Positions 5,329 to 63,193 of a stretch of 64,000 nt of DNA are shown piece after piece (the stretch's first letter is position 1; each line of letters starts with the position of its first letter). The stretch lies in assembly GCA_945870025.1 (NCBI GenBank), contig CAMBQN010000002.1:1-64000 (forward strand). Direction: 5' to 3'. The stretch comes from Akkermansia muciniphila. GTDB taxonomy: Bacteria; Verrucomicrobiota; Kiritimatiellia; RFP12; JAAYNR01. A program made the translations under genes and the position numbers. The notes below the pieces were generated by a model that was given only the letters and a program-made list of their open reading frames with translations, ran no database searches and was not told where the DNA came from.

Positions 5329-7158
5329 ATGTTGATCACCACACCGAAACAATTATCGACACTGACGCGCGAGTTGCAGAAGCAGGCCCGGAAAGCGGCT
5401 AAGACGCAGGTTCTCGTCTCCATGGGCACCTGCGGCATTGCGGCCGGCGCGACCCCCGTATTTGAGGCCCTCAAACGGGCCGTGACCGCACGCGGACTCA
5501 CGGATATCGATGTGCTCAGCGTGGGGTGCGTCGGTCTCTGCCACAGCGAACCGACCGTTGAGATTGTCGATGTGGCGACGGGTAGCAGCACCATTTACGG
5601 CGCCGTCACGCCGGAACAGGCGGCGGCGCTTCTGGACGGTCAGGGCCGCGAAGTCAAGAAATCGTGGTATTTTCCAGAGGACGAGGCCAACACCGAGAAC
5701 CGCATGCAGGCCCGGATTGTCTTGCGCAACAGCGGCCGTATCAATCCCGAGCGGATGGATGACTACATCGCGCGTGATGGCTATCAGGCGTTGGCGACCG
5801 CGCTCACCGGCATGAAGCCGGAAGAGGTGGTGGATCTCATCACGGCATCCGGTCTTCGCGGCCGAGGGGGCGGCGGCTTCCCCACGGGGACGAAATGGCG
5901 CATAGCGGCTGCGCAGCCATCGAAAGAGAAATACCTGATTTGCAATGCGGACGAAGGCGACCCCGGCGCCTTCATGGATCGGGCGGTGCTGGAAGGCGAC
6001 CCGCATGCCGTACTGGAAGCGATGGTCATCGCGGGTTACGCGATCGGGGCATCGCACGGGATCATCTATGTGCGCGCCGAATACCCGCTGGCGATCAAGC
6101 GACTTCAACTGGCGATTGGCCAGGCGCGCGAGCGCGGGCTGATCGGCGAGAATATCCTGGGCAGCGGTTTTGCCTTTGATCTTTCGATCAAATATGGAGC
6201 CGGCGCCTTTGTCTGCGGCGAGGAGACCGCGCTGATTCGATCCATCGCCGGCATGCGCGGCATGCCGACGTTCAAGCCACCGTTCCCGGCCGTCTCCGGA
6301 CTCTGGGGCAAGCCGACGATCGTCAACAACGTTGAGACCTTCGCGAACATACCGGCGATCCTGCGCAAGGGGGCCGCGTGGTTCAAGCGCATTGGTACGC
6401 CCGGGTCGCCGGGAACCAAGGTTTTTTGCATCACCGGCAAGATCAAGAAGGTCGGGCTCATTGAAGTTCCCATGGGAATCACGCTGCGCGACATCATCTT
6501 CGGCCTCGGCGAGGGCATCCGCAACGACCGGAAGTTTAAGGCCGTGCAGACGGGCGGTCCGTCGGGGGGATGCATCACAGAGAAGCATTTGGAGACGCCG
6601 ATCGATTACGACACGCTCAAGACGCTCGGCTCCATGATGGGGTCGGGCGGCATGATTGTCATGGATGAGGACGATTGCATGGTCGATGTGGCCAAGTTCT
6701 TCGTTCAATTCACCATGGACGAATCGTGCGGGAAATGCACGCCCTGCCGCGTGGGCGGTCGTCAAATGTACAGACTGCTCGAGAAGATCACGGAAGGGAA
6801 CGCCTCGCTTGCGGATCTGGATACCATCCGCGATCTGGCTCAAACGATCAAGACGGCATCGCTCTGTGGCCTGGGAATGACCGCTCCCAACCCGGTTCTG
6901 GCCACACTGGCCTGTTTTGAGGACGAGTACCGGGCGCACGTGGTGGACCGCAAATGTCCCGCAGGCAGATGCGCCAAGCTGATCACCTACACCATTGACC
7001 CGGAATTGTGTACCGGTTGCACGCTCTGCGCGCGCAAGTGTCCGACGGGCTGCATTTCCGGCAAAGTCAAAGATGCGCACGTCATCGACCAGACGACGTG
7101 CATCCATTGTGGCGCCTGCTTTGACGCCTGCAGGTTCAGCGCTGTTTGCAAGAAATAA
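5329..7158 (+). CDS. NuoF-like diaphorase subunit of the formate dehydrogenase operon
   Basis: This 609-residue NADH-binding flavoprotein has the HndC/HydB layout: an N-terminal [2Fe-2S] thioredoxin-like domain (MGTCGIAAG, VGCVGLC), an FMN/NAD core with GRGGGGFP and CNADEGDPGAFMDR, an ESCGKCTPCR cluster site and two C-terminal CxxCxxCxxxC ferredoxin sites. It lies 13 bases after the NuoE-like gene and 26 bases before the formate dehydrogenase start. Together these make a soluble three-subunit NAD(P)-dependent formate dehydrogenase, of the kind reported to bifurcate electrons in clostridia and methanotrophs. Bifurcation here is inferred only. Confidence 0.93.
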   Translation: MLITTPKQLSTLTRELQKQARKAAKTQVLVSMGTCGIAAGATPVFEALKRAVTARGLTDIDVLSVGCVGLCHSEPTVEIVDVATGSSTIYGAVTPEQAAALLDGQGREVKKSWYFPEDEANTENRMQARIVLRNSGRINPERMDDYIARDGYQALATALTGMKPEEVVDLITASGLRGRGGGGFPTGTKWRIAAAQPSKEKYLICNADEGDPGAFMDRAVLEGDPHAVLEAMVIAGYAIGASHGIIYVRAEYPLAIKRLQLAIGQARERGLIGENILGSGFAFDLSIKYGAGAFVCGEETALIRSIAGMRGMPTFKPPFPAVSGLWGKPTIVNNVETFANIPAILRKGAAWFKRIGTPGSPGTKVFCITGKIKKVGLIEVPMGITLRDIIFGLGEGIRNDRKFKAVQTGGPSGGCITEKHLETPIDYDTLKTLGSMMGSGGMIVMDEDDCMVDVAKFFVQFTMDESCGKCTPCRVGGRQMYRLLEKITEGNASLADLDTIRDLAQTIKTASLCGLGMTAPNPVLATLACFEDEYRAHVVDRKCPAGRCAKLITYTIDPELCTGCTLCARKCPTGCISGKVKDAHVIDQTTCIHCGACFDACRFSAVCKK

Positions 7159-7184
7159 ACCGCTTTTCAGGAGAACGTTCTGCC

Positions 7185-9929
7185 ATGAGCGACACCATCA
7201 CGTTATGGATTGATAAACAACCGATCACGGCCATCAAAGGGGAGACCATTCTGGAGGCGGCCCTGCGCAACGGTATCGAGATCCCCAACTTGTGCTACAA
7301 CAAGAAGGTTTCACATACCGCTTCCTGTCGGTTATGCATTGTAAACATTGCAGGCCGACCGGGTGCCATTCCGGCCTGCACGACCCCGGCCGAAGAAGGG
7401 ATGACTATCACCTGCTTCAGTCCCGCGCTGGAGAAGGTGCGGCGCACCACGCTTGATCTGGCGCTGTCCAATCACAACGACGACTGCATCTCTTGCGTCA
7501 AGGACGCATCCTGTCAGTTGCAGGATCTGGCTTTCCGCTACAACCTCGGTTTCAAGGATCGCCAATTCCCGCCCATTTGGGAGGAGCTGAATAAAACGTC
7601 GGATTTCAGCAGCCAGGTGTTGAATTACGATGCCTCCAAGTGCATCCAATGCAAGCGGTGCATCAAGGCCTGCTCCGAATTGCAAGGCAAAGGCGTGCTG
7701 ACCTTTGTGAACCGCGGCATCCGCACGACGGTGGGGACGGGTTACGCCGAGTGGAAAGATTCCAAATGCGACGGCTGCGGGGAATGCGCTCAGATCTGTC
7801 CCGTAGGCGCCATCACCGTCAAACAGTTCTATGGCCCGCGCACACGTATCCGCCAGAAAGATATTGAACGCGTCGTGCGCACCACGTGCCCGTATTGCGG
7901 CGTGGGGTGTCAACTGGATGTTGCCACGCGCCGGTGTTTCAGCGAGGGGGTGGGCAGCAAGGATCTCATGATCCAGGTCACGGGCGCAGACGTCGTTCCC
8001 AACTATGGAAGAACCTGCGTCAAGGGGCGTTTTGGACTCGATTTTGTCACCCGCCCGGATCGGCTCAAGCGCCCGATGATCCGCAAAGAGGGCAAACTGG
8101 TCGAGGTGGAGTGGCCGGAGGCGATCAGCTACACCGCTCATCGCCTGAGTGAGATCCGAGCGAAACACGGGCCTGCGGCGATTGCCGGCCTGTCGTCAGC
8201 CCGTTGCACCAATGAGGAAAATTACCTCTTCCAGAAATTCATCCGATCGAGCATCGGCAGCCCGCACATCGACCATTGCGCCCGTCTCTGCCATGCCTCG
8301 ACCGTTGCCGGACTGGCGATTACGCTGGGCTCCGGCGCCATGACCAACTCCATCGCGGAACTGGAACATGCCTCGGTGATCCTGGTGACCGGATCGAACA
8401 CCACCGAGACGCACCCGGTCATCGCCACCTACATCAAACGCGCGGTGCTCCACCACAAGGCCAAGCTGATCGTGGTCGACCCCCGTGAGATCGACCTCTG
8501 TCGCTTTGCAACGCTCTGGCTGCGCCAGCGCAATGGAACCGACATCGCCTGGATCAACGGCATGGTGCAGGCCATCATCGAGAACGGATGGGAAAACAAG
8601 GCCTTCATCGCGTCTCACACGGAGAACTTCGACGCCACGCGTGAGGTCATGAAGAAGTACGATGCGAAGACCGTTGAGCATCTGACCGGCATCCCAGCGG
8701 CGCAACTGGTGAAGGCGGCGAAGCTCTTTGCCCAGGCCAAGACCGCCTCCATCGTCTATTCTATGGGAATCACGCAGCATGCCCACGGCACGGACAATGT
8801 CAAGGCGATCTCCAACCTGGCGCTCGTTGCCGGCCAGATCGGCCGCGAAAGCACCGGCGTCAACCCCCTGCGCGGTCAAAATAACGTGCAGGGCGCCTGC
8901 GACATGGGCGCGCTTCCGAATGTCTTCCCGGGTTATCAGAAGGTGGACGACGCCACCGCGCACGACAAGTTTGCGACGGCGTGGCACAACAAGCACCTGC
9001 CCGAAAAGGTCGGCATGACGGTCACGGAGATCATGGGCGCCGCACACGATGGGACTGTCAAGGCGCTCTATATCATGGGCGAGAACCCGATGATCTCAGA
9101 CCCGGATATCACCCATGTCAAAGCATCGCTGGCCCATCTTGAATGCTTGATTGTCCAGGACATTTTCCTGACGGAAACGGCTGAATTGGCCGATGTGGTT
9201 CTGCCCGCCTCTTCGTTTGCCGAGAAGACCGGCACGTATACCAACACCGAGCGCCGCATCCTGCCGCTGGCCCGGATCGTCGATCCGCCGGGCGACGCAC
9301 GCGCCGATTGGGAGATCGTGCAGAGTCTGGCGCAAGCCCTCGGTCATGCGTGGAACTATGATGACACAAACGACATTCTTCGCGAGATCAATGCGCTCGT
9401 GCCACAGTACGCCGGCATCACGCCCGAGCGTCTGGCGGCGGGCGAGCGCCTGCAATGGCCATGCCCCTCCGTCACGCACCCGGGAACCCGCTTCTTGCAC
9501 AAGGACGGGGCGTTCTCGCGCGGCAAGGGTCTGTTCTCCGCAGTCGACCATATCGCGGCCAAGGAGCAGCCTTGTGCCGAGTATCCGTTCGTTCTCAATA
9601 CCGGTCGCATGCTTTATCATTACCATACCTGCTCCATGACCCGACGCACGGAAGCCCTTCCGCGCTACGTCAAGGATGCGTACATGGAGATGTGCAAAGC
9701 CGATTGCGATGCGCTGGGCGTTGCGCACGGCGAGATCGTCCGCGTCTCGTCCAGGCGGGGCGCGATCAACATCCCCGTGAAGCTGACGGAGATTGTGGCG
9801 GTGGGCAGCGTGTTCATCCCGTTCCACTTCGCCGAGGCTGCCGCGAACGTCCTCACCAACACGGCCATCGATCCCACGGCCAAAATTCCTGAATTGAAGG
9901 TTTGCGCCGTCAAGATCGAGAAACTCTAA
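7185..9929 (+). CDS. fdhA: formate dehydrogenase alpha subunit, cysteine type, with NuoG-like N-terminus
   Basis: This oxidises formate to CO2 (or reduces CO2) at a Mo- or W-bis-pyranopterin site. From the start at 7185 (914 residues, GGAG 12 bases upstream) the order is a [2Fe-2S] plant-ferredoxin domain, a Cys-rich cluster around DDCISC, two CxxCxxC [4Fe-4S] sites, a TTCPYCGVGC [4Fe-4S] site of the catalytic domain, and the molybdopterin oxidoreductase body with a C-terminal dinucleotide-binding domain. The metal ligand is Cys369 in the CARLCH motif where other FDHs carry selenocysteine, so no Sec machinery is needed. The open frame extends 13 codons further upstream into the preceding gene but lacks an RBS there. 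Confidence 0.94.
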   Translation: MSDTITLWIDKQPITAIKGETILEAALRNGIEIPNLCYNKKVSHTASCRLCIVNIAGRPGAIPACTTPAEEGMTITCFSPALEKVRRTTLDLALSNHNDDCISCVKDASCQLQDLAFRYNLGFKDRQFPPIWEELNKTSDFSSQVLNYDASKCIQCKRCIKACSELQGKGVLTFVNRGIRTTVGTGYAEWKDSKCDGCGECAQICPVGAITVKQFYGPRTRIRQKDIERVVRTTCPYCGVGCQLDVATRRCFSEGVGSKDLMIQVTGADVVPNYGRTCVKGRFGLDFVTRPDRLKRPMIRKEGKLVEVEWPEAISYTAHRLSEIRAKHGPAAIAGLSSARCTNEENYLFQKFIRSSIGSPHIDHCARLCHASTVAGLAITLGSGAMTNSIAELEHASVILVTGSNTTETHPVIATYIKRAVLHHKAKLIVVDPREIDLCRFATLWLRQRNGTDIAWINGMVQAIIENGWENKAFIASHTENFDATREVMKKYDAKTVEHLTGIPAAQLVKAAKLFAQAKTASIVYSMGITQHAHGTDNVKAISNLALVAGQIGRESTGVNPLRGQNNVQGACDMGALPNVFPGYQKVDDATAHDKFATAWHNKHLPEKVGMTVTEIMGAAHDGTVKALYIMGENPMISDPDITHVKASLAHLECLIVQDIFLTETAELADVVLPASSFAEKTGTYTNTERRILPLARIVDPPGDARADWEIVQSLAQALGHAWNYDDTNDILREINALVPQYAGITPERLAAGERLQWPCPSVTHPGTRFLHKDGAFSRGKGLFSAVDHIAAKEQPCAEYPFVLNTGRMLYHYHTCSMTRRTEALPRYVKDAYMEMCKADCDALGVAHGEIVRVSSRRGAINIPVKLTEIVAVGSVFIPFHFAEAAANVLTNTAIDPTAKIPELKVCAVKIEKL

Positions 9930-56065: not shown

Positions 56066-58399
<2,334 letters not shown>

Positions 58400-60163
58400 T
58401 CAATCGGCTGATCCCGGTTCATCGGCGGCGAGGAGGGTCAGGACAGGGGCGAGGGATCCGGCGGCGGCAGCAAGCCGACGGGCATCCTCGCGGTTGCCGG
58501 TTTCCAGCAGGCGAAAACAGACCGAAGCCGCCTGTTGGGGTGCCAGACGGGGTCCGAGGAGGCGAATCTTCTCGGCGTCGGGAATGCCAGCGATCTTGAC
58601 CGTGACGTGGCGCTTCTGATCGGTAACAAAGAAGAGCACCTCCCCATTGGCGATCGTCTTCGGAACCACCTGGCGGGTTTTGCCCTGATAATTCAGAACC
58701 ATCTCGGTATCGATCACCTGTTCGAGGGCGTGAACCACGAGGCGGTCGAAGGGTTCGACGGCGGCGAGAGCCTCCTGCAAGGCTTTGAATCCAAAGTGCG
58801 TGTGGCCTGCGGCGAGCCGGGCGGTGACGAGGGTCTGCATCGCGGCGATGCCCCCGGTTTTATAGGCATCGGCCAGCGCACGTTGGAGTGCGGCGTCGGG
58901 CGGCGCGTCGGTCGAGCGCGTCTCAAAGATGCGGATCGTCGGCGGAGGGGGTGTGACCGGCTGTGGTTTGGGCCGGGGCGTGACTTCGGGCAGGCGCGCG
59001 ACGGGCGGCGCGACGGGCGGCGCGACGCGGGCTTCGGGTTTCGGGTCCGCCGGCTTGCGTCCTGAGATAAATGGGGTGGAGGGGACAAGCCCGGTGATCA
59101 CACTCTGCAGACGCGGAACAAGCCCGGCCGGGTCGCCGAGCCGATCGTTGCCCAGCGCGACGAACCAGAGCGCCAGAAGCATCCAGAGAATCAAGCGGGA
59201 GAAACCGCCGCGGCCGTTGCGACTGTCATGACGATCGGACTTTAGAAAGGCCCGATCTTCAGAAGTCGATGCAACTTTCGAAGACGTGAGGGTTGAAATC
59301 CCCGTGCCCAGCAGCGGGCTGCGCCGGATGGGCTTTCCGGCCAACAGCCGGGTGATGTCGGCGATGACATCGCCCCAGGACGGATAGCGGTTATCCGGAT
59401 CCTTCATGAGCAGCCGTTCGACCAGCGCGCATACGGAGAGCGGGGTGTCCGGCCGACTCTCCCGCAAACTGGGCAATTGGGCCTCAAGCTGGCTATGCAT
59501 CACCTGGTCGGGCGGCTGGTCGCCAAAAGGAATGCGGCCGGTGATTCCAAAATAGAGAATCATGCCCAACGCGTACATGTCGGCACGGCAGTCGATCGGA
59601 CGGGAACGGGTAATCTGTTCGGGTGCGATGAAATTGGGCGTGCCGACGACCGTGTCCTCGTCGAACGACTCGGTCTCGCTGCCGAGCGTCATGAGCGTGG
59701 CCATGCCGAAGTCGGTCAGCTTGGCCGTGCCGGCCGGGGTGATGCGTATCGCCGTCGGTTTGAGGTTGCGGTGCACGAGCCGGTCATGGGTCCACGCTTT
59801 GTCGAGCGCGTCTGCCAGATCAAGCGCATACCGAAGCATCTGACTCATCGAACTGCGTTGCGTGGCCTGAATGCGATCCGAAAGGACCTGCCCGGCCACA
59901 TCTTCCATGACCACATAATGAACGTCATGCGCGCTGGACACGTCGAAAATCTGGCAAAATGCATCCGCCTTGATACGGGCGATGGCGCGGAAGACCGAAA
60001 CAAACTGCTCGACCTGCCGGGGATCTGCGGCGGCTTCGGGCAACAGCGCCTTGACCATCACATGACGATCGAGCGAACGCTGATAGGCGCGCCAGGTCGT
60101 GGTGTTGCTGGACTCCGAAATCGTTTCAAACGACTCCAGTCCGGGTATATCGGGGAGATACAT
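58400..60163 (-). CDS. Hanks-type serine/threonine kinase homologue, probable pseudokinase, membrane-anchored
   Basis: The 587-residue protein has a kinase domain (1-280), then a single membrane helix (about 321-338) and a Pro-rich external C-terminal region with a distinct domain (around 400-587). The VxK lysine is Lys38 and DFG is intact (151-153), but the catalytic loop reads His-Arg-Asn133-Leu-Lys-Pro in place of HRD, the second loop Asn is Ala138, and the glycine-rich loop is replaced by ESSNTTTW. Catalysis is therefore doubtful; a sensor or scaffold role fits. Start at 60163 is probably leaderless. Confidence 0.82.
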   Translation of the reverse strand: MYLPDIPGLESFETISESSNTTTWRAYQRSLDRHVMVKALLPEAAADPRQVEQFVSVFRAIARIKADAFCQIFDVSSAHDVHYVVMEDVAGQVLSDRIQATQRSSMSQMLRYALDLADALDKAWTHDRLVHRNLKPTAIRITPAGTAKLTDFGMATLMTLGSETESFDEDTVVGTPNFIAPEQITRSRPIDCRADMYALGMILYFGITGRIPFGDQPPDQVMHSQLEAQLPSLRESRPDTPLSVCALVERLLMKDPDNRYPSWGDVIADITRLLAGKPIRRSPLLGTGISTLTSSKVASTSEDRAFLKSDRHDSRNGRGGFSRLILWMLLALWFVALGNDRLGDPAGLVPRLQSVITGLVPSTPFISGRKPADPKPEARVAPPVAPPVARLPEVTPRPKPQPVTPPPPTIRIFETRSTDAPPDAALQRALADAYKTGGIAAMQTLVTARLAAGHTHFGFKALQEALAAVEPFDRLVVHALEQVIDTEMVLNYQGKTRQVVPKTIANGEVLFFVTDQKRHVTVKIAGIPDAEKIRLLGPRLAPQQAASVCFRLLETGNREDARRLAAAAGSLAPVLTLLAADEPGSAD

Positions 60164-60169
60164 GGTGAT

Positions 60170-60199
60170 AAGATAGCATAAAACCGGATCGGGCGACAA
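60170..60199 (-). promoter_or_regulatory. promoter for a probably leaderless kinase-like transcript
   Basis: On the minus strand, TTGTCG (60199-60194), an 18-base spacer and TATCTT (60175-60170) are followed after 6 bases by ATG 60163. No Shine-Dalgarno is present. Confidence 0.5.
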
Positions 60200-60290: not shown

Positions 60291-62321
60291 ATGGATTTCA
60301 AACGGATAGGCGAGCCGCTTTTTGCGCAGGACCCCACGGGGCGGCCGCTGTCGCGCGTGGGGACGGTTTTTCTGCGCACGCCGGGGCTGGTCACCCTGCC
60401 GGGCGTGCATGCCATGCAACGGCTGGCTTGGGTCGACGGTCTCAACGCCGATCGGGCCGCCGCCGGCGCGCCGCCGCTCTCCGAGACGGAGCAAGACGCC
60501 GAATTCGACGCCTCCGTGGATCTGCTCCTGGAGGGAAGCACCGTCCTGATCCGCCCCGATCCTTCACGCATGGATCTTGCCTTTCTGGCCGACGATTTTC
60601 TGCAGACGTTTGTCTCCAAGCGACGCATCCGTTTTCTCAACACGGCCAACGAGACGATTCGGGAAGCTCTCCGCAGGCGTGGCGAAAACTGGCGCATGAG
60701 CCCCCTGCCGCAGACCCAGGAGGAAATCATCGCCCTGATTGCCGACGCCCGCACCGCCATTGAGAACGTCCCCGTCTACTACTACAACCGTGTCGCCGGC
60801 ACCCGTTACCTCACCTGCGAATCCTTCCGCTGGCTGGCCGCGCTGGATGACGCCACCTTCCGATCGCAGCTCGACGAGATCGCGCGCTTTAGCACCCGGC
60901 GCAATCGCCTCGGGCATTCTGAGATCGACGTCTTTCCGCCCGGCTGCCCGTTTGATCGCGCCGCCTTTGCGGCGCTCGCCCCGACGGGCGATGCGTCATC
61001 CGCCGAGCTGCGCCGCCGCCATGCGACGCTCGCGTCGGACTACGAGGCAGCCGTGCCGCCGATCCTCCGGGCGGACGCCCCCGGGGCGCCCGAGTGGCGC
61101 CGGGCGATGTGCGCCGCGTTGGTCAAACAGCCGAATGCAGCCGTTTCGGACGAGATCGTCAGCGGCCTCTCCGCCGAGTTCTACCTGCAGATCGAATGGC
61201 TCCCCGGCGCGCGCATCGAGGACGGCGAACTGATTTTTGATCCGCTCTTCGACGAATGCGCCGCCCGGCCGGACGACGCCGAGTTGCGCGCTCTGTGCGA
61301 TTTTCGCGCGCGCGGCATGATTTTCAATTACGTGCGCGAATTCCGCGAGATCGAATACATCAACATCGGCCGGATATCCCGTTCCCTGTCGCGCCGCGTC
61401 ACCACCTCCCGGCGACCCACGGTCTACATCGCCGAGGTTCAGCACGCCCACGCCGACAAGCCGGTCGTTCGCATCCTCCGTCTGCAGAAATGGGGCATCG
61501 CCGAACATCTGGACGAAGGAAAGGACCTGCTGCAGTCGATCATCGAGGCCGAAACCTACACCGACTACATCCTCGACCGCCGTCTCGGCTGTCAGCAACT
61601 CGGTATGAGCCTGCCGCCGCAGATTGTCGCCCGCCGCATCAACGAGACCTACACCGGGACGAATGCGCGCTACGTCGGCCAGACCTACTGGCTCACGTAC
61701 CTCGAGCGGCCCTACCTGTACGGGTGGACTTCGGCCAAGATTCCGCCGCACCACTATGCGAATACGGAATTTAATCGTCGGCTGGCGGCCCTTCTCGGTG
61801 CAGCGGCCGCGACCAATCTGATTCTCGGGCGCACTCGGGTTGACAGCGCCAACGTCCTGTTTGACGACGGCGACGAGATCGTTCTGTTTGATGCCGATGG
61901 GCTGCCTCAGAGCTTGGTGGTTGCCGACCACACCGGGACGTTTTCGCACTACCTGGGGCCCCTGGCGGATCTGGCGTCCGCCTATGCTGCGCCGGTCAAC
62001 TGGCGTGCGGGACTCATGCCCAATGCGAGCGAGTTTGCCGTGTGTTATCTGGCCGCCTTCGTCGAACGTTTCGATTACACACGCGGGGAATACCTCCGGC
62101 GCAAACGGGCGTTTGACACACTCTTCATCCACCGCGCCCGCGACGTGGCCGGCAGTTTCGCTTACCGCTGGGAATGCGTCCTCAACCGCCTCGCGGCCAC
62201 CCCTTCCGGGCCGCTCGCGGCGGTGATCCGAAATCAAATCACGGCCGTTGACCACACCCTTTTGAATTCTCTTTCACCCCCACCCCAGGAGCATCCATCA
62301 TGCAAAGCATCCCCGTCCTGA
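60291..62321 (+). CDS. unknown 676-residue protein, possibly with an atypical kinase-like fold
   Basis: I do not recognise the family. The start at 60291 has GGGGGAG 7-8 bases upstream. The C-terminal third has features of a protein/small-molecule kinase fold: a strand with Lys (VRILRLQKWG), a helix with Glu (IIEAETYTDYILDRRLG), and Asn521 in ANVLFDDGD followed by a VLFDADG strand (Asp534, Asp536) where kinases place their metal-binding residues. The N-terminal two thirds are novel to me. No signal peptide or membrane segment. Its last 22 bases overlap the thymidylate-synthase-like gene, so the two are coupled. Confidence 0.7.
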   Translation: MDFKRIGEPLFAQDPTGRPLSRVGTVFLRTPGLVTLPGVHAMQRLAWVDGLNADRAAAGAPPLSETEQDAEFDASVDLLLEGSTVLIRPDPSRMDLAFLADDFLQTFVSKRRIRFLNTANETIREALRRRGENWRMSPLPQTQEEIIALIADARTAIENVPVYYYNRVAGTRYLTCESFRWLAALDDATFRSQLDEIARFSTRRNRLGHSEIDVFPPGCPFDRAAFAALAPTGDASSAELRRRHATLASDYEAAVPPILRADAPGAPEWRRAMCAALVKQPNAAVSDEIVSGLSAEFYLQIEWLPGARIEDGELIFDPLFDECAARPDDAELRALCDFRARGMIFNYVREFREIEYINIGRISRSLSRRVTTSRRPTVYIAEVQHAHADKPVVRILRLQKWGIAEHLDEGKDLLQSIIEAETYTDYILDRRLGCQQLGMSLPPQIVARRINETYTGTNARYVGQTYWLTYLERPYLYGWTSAKIPPHHYANTEFNRRLAALLGAAAATNLILGRTRVDSANVLFDDGDEIVLFDADGLPQSLVVADHTGTFSHYLGPLADLASAYAAPVNWRAGLMPNASEFAVCYLAAFVERFDYTRGEYLRRKRAFDTLFIHRARDVAGSFAYRWECVLNRLAATPSGPLAAVIRNQITAVDHTLLNSLSPPPQEHPSCKASPS

Positions 62322-63193
62322 CTGTCCGCGGCGGTTCGCTCGCCGAAGCCTACGAGCGCGCCCTGATTGCCCTGTACCACGGCGGCATCCGTCTCCGCAC
62401 GCAGTACGACAAACCTGGCGCCCCGTTGAGCCTTGATGCCACGATGAACATCACCATCGACGACCCGCTGGCCGATCCCATGATTCACAAGGCCTTCCCC
62501 GGCGGACTTCCCGACCTGCGCGAATATGTCTACGAGCTGGAAGGACGCAAGGATCACTGGGTCAAGGCGATCAACGATCCCGCCGACACCCGTTGGGAGT
62601 ACACCTATCACGGCCGCCTGCAGAACTATGGCCAATGGAAAGAGCGCGGCGCCGACGGGAAAAACCAGTTTGTCGGCCCTTTTCAGGTCGACCAGATCGC
62701 CTACGTCATCGACAAGCTCGTCGCGCAGCCCTTCACCCGGCAGGCGCAGATGATCACCTGGATGCCGAATCATGACCTCGCCTGCTACGACCCGCCGTGC
62801 CTGCAGTCGCTCTGGTATCGCATTCTGGAGGACGACACCGGCGTACAGTGGCTCAACGCCAACGTTCGTTTCCGTTCCAACGACGCTTGGGGCGCGAACT
62901 TCATGAACATGTTTGGCTTCATCCAGTTCAATCAGACCCTCATCGCCGCCGAGATCGCGCGCCGCACCGGCAAGCCGGTGCGCCTCGCGCGCATGAACTG
63001 GCAGGCCGATTCCTATCACATCTACGGCAAGGATATCGAACAGGCCGAGCAGAGGCTCTTCAGCCGTCTGGAAACGACCGCGTTCGACGACCGGATCTAC
63101 CATTTCCACGACCCGGCCATCACCGAGATGTACCACGAGGAGGAGGCCGCCATCCTGCGCAAGATCGACGAGATGTCGCAGCGGATGGGCTGA
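62300..63193 (+). CDS. thymidylate synthase-fold protein
   Basis: This 297-residue protein belongs to the thymidylate synthase superfamily, which methylates or hydroxymethylates pyrimidine nucleotides. Visible parallels are the nucleophile Cys167 in DPPC, Arg192-Ser193-x-Asp195 (the RSxD phosphate/substrate motif), Asn203 at the position that selects uracil in ThyA, and His240/Tyr242 in the HIY motif. The usual PCH is PCL, so the His beside the nucleophile is lost. It may be the cell's ThyA or a specialised pyrimidine C5-modifying enzyme. CCAGGAG precedes the start within the upstream gene. Confidence 0.85.
   Translation: MQSIPVLTVRGGSLAEAYERALIALYHGGIRLRTQYDKPGAPLSLDATMNITIDDPLADPMIHKAFPGGLPDLREYVYELEGRKDHWVKAINDPADTRWEYTYHGRLQNYGQWKERGADGKNQFVGPFQVDQIAYVIDKLVAQPFTRQAQMITWMPNHDLACYDPPCLQSLWYRILEDDTGVQWLNANVRFRSNDAWGANFMNMFGFIQFNQTLIAAEIARRTGKPVRLARMNWQADSYHIYGKDIEQAEQRLFSRLETTAFDDRIYHFHDPAITEMYHEEEAAILRKIDEMSQRMG

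Follow-up and report, generated by a model that had tools for sequence, protein, structure and literature searches.

A thymidylate-synthase-family protein of methanogen-like signature and a predicted kinase-like protein, encoded by two genes apparently joined through a recent deletion

Two overlapping genes, designated P1 and P2, were analysed in a window of 64,000 nucleotides (assembly GCA_945870025.1, contig CAMBQN010000002.1, positions 1 to 64,000; source genome 81% complete). On balance they are probably separate genes joined by a recent deletion, P2 being related to the thymidylate synthase (TS) of methanogens and a likely producer of dTMP, and P1 being a two-domain protein with a predicted kinase-like fold in its C-terminal part. 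The features of the locus (window positions) and of P1 (residues) are:

60291–62321, forward strand: P1, 676 aa (open reading frame, homologues, alignment, AF2 model, Foldseek)
62300–63193, forward strand: P2, 297-aa TS-family enzyme (methanogen-like subgroup), Cys167 as nucleophile
62300–62321, forward strand: 22-bp overlap of the P1 3' end and the P2 5' end
62230–62245, no strand: putative deletion junction; the sister genome instead has ca. 1.3 kb (L088, 4085–5381) with a DegP/HtrA-like protease gene
62231–62318, forward strand: aberrant C-terminal tail of P1 (residues ca. 647–676), apparently junction remnant plus former 5' leader of P2; not in homologues
P1 residues 1–290: N-terminal domain, no solved structural match
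P1 residues ca. 300–650: predicted kinase-like (PKL) domain (AF2 and Foldseek)

Both frames are preceded by a plausible signal for translation (Shine-Dalgarno sequence GGGGGAG upstream of P1; ribosome-binding site AGGAG upstream of P2), and they are not chance ORFs, because both have many homologues. The 22-base overlap noted in an earlier, sequence-only reading of this DNA was confirmed, both frames being open throughout it. A Ser/Thr protein kinase gene (58400–60199) and a gene for an NAD-dependent DNA ligase with a Pro-Ala repeat tail (56066–58366) lie divergent to P1.

The same reading took the two genes for a coupled unit, and comparison with the other genome of the genus did not bear this out: there, a gene for a 385-aa trypsin/PDZ protease sits between P1 and P2 (DegP/HtrA-like by profile match; Trypsin_2, E 5.5e-35; PDZ_2, E 5.9e-11). 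In the alignment, DNA identity between window and sister ends at 62230 and restarts at 62245. Past P1 position 634 the window protein has 42 residues, the homologues compared ca. 18–32. The overlap and the extra C-terminus of P1 are best read as the scar of a recent deletion. Judged from the length of P1, a deletion in the window genome appears the likelier direction: it would explain both the overlap and the tail, and an insertion in the sister would need the further step of giving P1 back its normal end, which makes it the less simple account. P2 was found near P1 in none of the 45 fetched contig loci, only in the window genome and its sister; the adjacency is confined to one genus, as had been foreseen for an incidental pair, and the two genes do not form a conserved unit. 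No P1/P2 adjacency outside the genus was found in the loci examined; in one genome (G029) a second P1 copy is encoded on the strand opposite to P2, ca. 6 kb away and in no operon.

P2 was assigned to the TS family by Pfam (PF00303: E 7.7e-10, 38.8 bits, above the gathering cut-off of 24.3; PF02511, ThyX, was absent from its Pfam matches). Among NCBIfam models the methanogen TS model TIGR03283 came first (E 4.7e-27, 94.8 bits; the match spans nearly the whole model and is below the equivalog cut-off of 174.55), and the best bacterial TS model was far below its cut-off (E 8.6e-9, 35.3 bits vs 327). The same ranking was obtained for five P2 relatives and for a methanogen-virus TS; relatives of P2 scored 88–106 bits against TIGR03283. 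Relatives with 65–96% identity occur across Verrucomicrobiota, a remoter group being near 50%, and were also found in viral contigs of 68–416 kb. One of these contigs (L131, IMGVR_UViG_3300019850_000189, 6001–8151) carries a P2-like TS gene in which a ca. 410-aa insert with Hint and LAGLIDADG domains sits directly in front of the catalytic Cys, i.e., an intein in a TS-family gene.

In 26 aligned members of the P2 family the following residues were invariant: Glu75, Trp99, Arg147-Gln148, Cys167, Leu168, Arg192-Ser193-Asn194-Asp195, Asn203, His240 and Tyr242. The assignment to the TS family with Cys167, Asn203 and Leu for the His of PCH, made earlier from this one sequence, thus holds for the family. 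P2 lacks both the PCH motif and the Arg-Arg phosphate pair and has PCL and Arg-Gln instead, both invariant; PCLQ at the nucleophile is common to P2 and the methanogen-virus TS. In E. coli TS, the His after the Cys is dispensable for substrate binding, and activity drops without it (PMC7962005). Arg, Ser and Asn at the P2 positions are the mark of deoxyuridylate enzymes; Asp at the Asn203 position is the rule for cytosine substrates, and Asn203 fits a dUMP hydroxymethylase too (PMC5175136).

ThyA yields dihydrofolate and is thereby coupled to FolA; ThyX is not so coupled (PMC9931769). Dihydrofolate reductase (DHFR, scored as PF00186 only) was therefore counted in 384 genomes of the phylum of at least 90% completeness, the window genome (81%) being included. 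PF00186 DHFR was present in: genomes with classical ThyA – 140 of 152; with strong ThyX alone – 0 of 106; with the P2 family and no classical ThyA – 2 of 36, both exceptions being members of family f44, where DHFR is common anyway. (Genomes of family f44 contain weak, long ThyX-like frames, ca. 480 aa, E ca. 1e-7 to 1e-13, and often DHFR as well.) The control methanogens M. jannaschii and M. acetivorans have PF00303 and lack PF00186. P2 was the sole TS in ten genomes including that of the window, and DHFR was found in none of the ten; strong ThyX accompanied P2 in 22 of 37 genomes, so P2 is not always the only TS of the cell. No TS of any type was recognisable in 42 of the 384 genomes, for which reason P2 as sole TS is not proof of dTMP synthesis.

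In the 81% complete window genome no PF02511 and no TS besides P2 were found. It had been reasoned that a genome with no other TS would make P2 the plain ThyA; the first part stood, within that assembly, and the second did not, because genomes relying on P2 lack DHFR. The description of P2 as atypical is upheld by PCL and Arg-Gln and by the missing DHFR. Of 50 genomes drawn from the order of the window (at least 90% complete; e.g., G045, 100%), 34 gave no recognisable match to ThyA, ThyX, P2 or DHFR; the literature on thymidine auxotrophy of Kiritimatiellae yielded nothing useful.

Seven genomes from three families have a DFP gene next after P2 or one gene further on, and six of these seven loci also encode an HD_3/YfbR-like 5'-deoxynucleotidase, fused or adjacent; such neighbours fit a place for P2 in dUMP/dTMP (deoxyuridylate) metabolism. 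CoaBC was considered for the neighbour and rejected in favour of the fusion of DFP with the HD_3 5'-deoxynucleotidase.

In the proposed mechanism P2 would bind a deoxyuridylate substrate via the usual TS residues, Cys167 would attack C6 of the uracil, a methylene-pterin such as 5,10-methylene-THF would serve as carbon donor, and the product would most likely be dTMP. As DHFR is missing from the host genomes, the reducing step would leave no dihydrofolate, or else an unrecognised reductase would recycle it. The chemistry expected is that of folate and not of methanopterin, because some relatives of the host bacteria carry FolD. The DHFR-sparing route to dTMP is preferred because, of the named families, the one closest to P2 is a thymidylate synthase; judged from profiles and gene content, P2 is most likely a DHFR-independent, methanogen-like dUMP methylase.

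Two other activities were weighed against this one. A dUMP hydroxymethyltransferase of the kind found in SPO1-type phages, whose 5-hydroxymethyl-dUMP would go into a modified DNA base or another product, would regenerate THF and so not need DHFR; this agrees with the DHFR independence of the P2 genomes, with the coexistence of ThyX in most P2 hosts and with the presence of the family in large viral contigs. The dUMP/dCMP hydroxymethylases (SPO1 dUH, T4 gp42, MilA) share the TS fold with P2 and likewise do without DHFR, one phage pyrimidine hydroxymethylase has also lost the His after the Cys and has Arg-Gln for Arg-Arg, and Asn203 is compatible with a dUMP enzyme (PMC5175136). However, the top profile of P2 is methanogen TS and no hydroxymethylase, P2 is the only TS-family gene in ten genomes, the aligned hydroxymethylase has at position 203 the Asp of the cytosine enzymes where P2 has Asn, and no base-modification genes were seen beside P2 within the window, so that this activity is rather unlikely. 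Evidence was found neither for modified thymine nor for nucleotide signalling, the two functions first imagined for the locus. The remaining activity, that of a divergent ordinary ThyA whose dihydrofolate is reduced by an enzyme outside PF00186, draws on the single TS found in the window genome, on the mostly retained substrate-binding residues and on the inessential role of the His in substrate binding in E. coli TS (PMC7962005); it is distinctly unlikely given scores far under the NCBIfam ThyA cut-offs and a systematic absence of DHFR (34 of 36 genomes vs 12 of 152 for classical ThyA).

Compared with classical bacterial ThyA (PF00303), P2 shares the fold, the Cys nucleophile and the Arg/Ser/Asp/Asn/His/Tyr substrate residues, and differs in the absent His after the Cys, in Arg-Gln for Arg-Arg and in having no DHFR partner. 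With methanogen-type TS it shares its best curated profile, PCLQ (as in the methanogen-virus TS) and, as in the control methanogens, PF00303 without PF00186; unlike that type, it scores 94.8 bits against a cut-off of 174.6 and resides in bacteria, the Verrucomicrobiota. The biochemistry of methanogen ThyA is much less known (PMC9012536); a bacterial subgroup with a methanogen-like signature, systematically DHFR-less and sometimes the sole TS, would open the making of dTMP by TS-fold enzymes in organisms without DHFR to study in E. coli thyA.

Full-length P1 homologues (ca. 40–57% identity; 89% within the genus) were found in Verrucomicrobiota, Kiritimatiellae and Planctomycetota. The initial impression that P1 belongs to no known family was borne out: searches of Pfam, NCBIfam, PHROG, PADLOC and PDB sequences, the last also with a P1 profile, were all empty. 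The AF2 model (31 sequences; pLDDT 89.4, pTM 0.82) divides P1 into two domains, the N-terminal one new and the C-terminal one predicted to be kinase-like. In Foldseek the 50 best PDB matches were without exception kinases or pseudokinases (FGFR1, Vps34, PINK1, PI4K, PknA, JAK2 JH2; weak matches, best E 8e-4, TM 0.14–0.26 by query length), and the viral library of Foldseek agreed. Residues 1–292 modelled alone (pLDDT 92.6) matched no solved fold in Foldseek; a metallo-β-lactamase hit to the N-terminal domain (E 0.11, probability 0.16) was rejected as noise.

The C-terminal part of P1 is predicted to be kinase-like at these weak scores, as the sequence-only reading had suspected, which tells somewhat against a large protein with no kinase fold; the residues on which the suspicion had been based, Asn521 and Asp534/Asp536, were rejected, their spacing being peculiar to one sequence (31 homologues: 521, mostly Glu or Gln; 534, mostly Gly, Asp or Asn; 536, variable). 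Canonical HRD and DFG motifs are absent from P1. Candidate ATP/metal catalytic residues, chosen from their position in the model, are Lys400 and Asp525, which all 31 sequences share, and Asp546, kept in 28 of the 31; Lys400 follows the third strand of the model. In its predicted C-terminal fold P1 resembles the PKL superfamily (Vps34, PI4K, PINK1, PknA); it differs in that it does not match the superfamily in sequence, lacks canonical HRD/DFG and has an N-terminal domain unrelated to it.

At nine loci a FolD gene lies immediately upstream of P1 on the same strand, often overlapping it or a few bases apart (two of these FolD genes were checked against Pfam); the loci represent 8 of 54 P1 clusters (90% identity) and have diverged to 40% (range 40–50% identity). 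This neighbour suggests a folate or one-carbon link, and P1 is probably an ATP-using enzyme of one-carbon or nucleotide metabolism. P1 merits attention as a conserved family lacking annotation: its model is of high confidence, one of its domains resembles no known fold, and a folate gene recurs beside it. A more ambitious proposal would make P2 a bacterial TS class that forms dTMP without dihydrofolate (DHFR-free, non-flavin) and P1 a novel enzyme that uses ATP, is linked to folate or nucleotides and has a new N-terminal fold, the two acting in one and the same one-carbon pathway; it is unlikely to be right.

Two closer ties of P1 to thymidylate synthesis were considered. P1 might act with P2, e.g., as a kinase-like regulator or nucleotide kinase: the genes lie near each other in either genome of the genus, FolD, a user of the same methylene-THF pool, adjoins P1 in eight lineages, and P1 and P2 co-occur outside the order above chance (11 of 15 vs 21 of 319 genomes, Fisher p 1e-9), in a test that ignores phylogeny and is confounded by shared ancestry. 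This partnership is nevertheless quite improbable, for the adjacency is not conserved and 30 of the 52 genomes with P1 lack every kind of TS. That P1 itself replaces TS was raised by the FolD-P1 operons and by the presence of P1 in 30 of the 42 genomes without recognisable TS; it was rejected as highly improbable, since outside the order ThyX, ThyA or P2 is present in most genomes with P1, some near-complete genomes (G045, 100% complete; G031; G048) lack both P1 and TS, and a kinase-like fold does not suggest such a role. Five of the six Planctomycetota genomes with P1 are without ThyX. A defence system was rejected (PADLOC empty), as was a phage origin of P1, which occurred in no phage record or viral contig.

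Most genomes of the order also contain a P1 paralogue of ca. 720–740 aa with no Pfam match (L089, 2063–4252; L093, 2331–4553); it adjoins a sugar-nucleotide-transferase-like gene, in L093 fused to an APH-like kinase. In gut lineages (L046, L054, L056, L061 and others) dipeptide-type ABC permease genes follow P1 at 15 loci.
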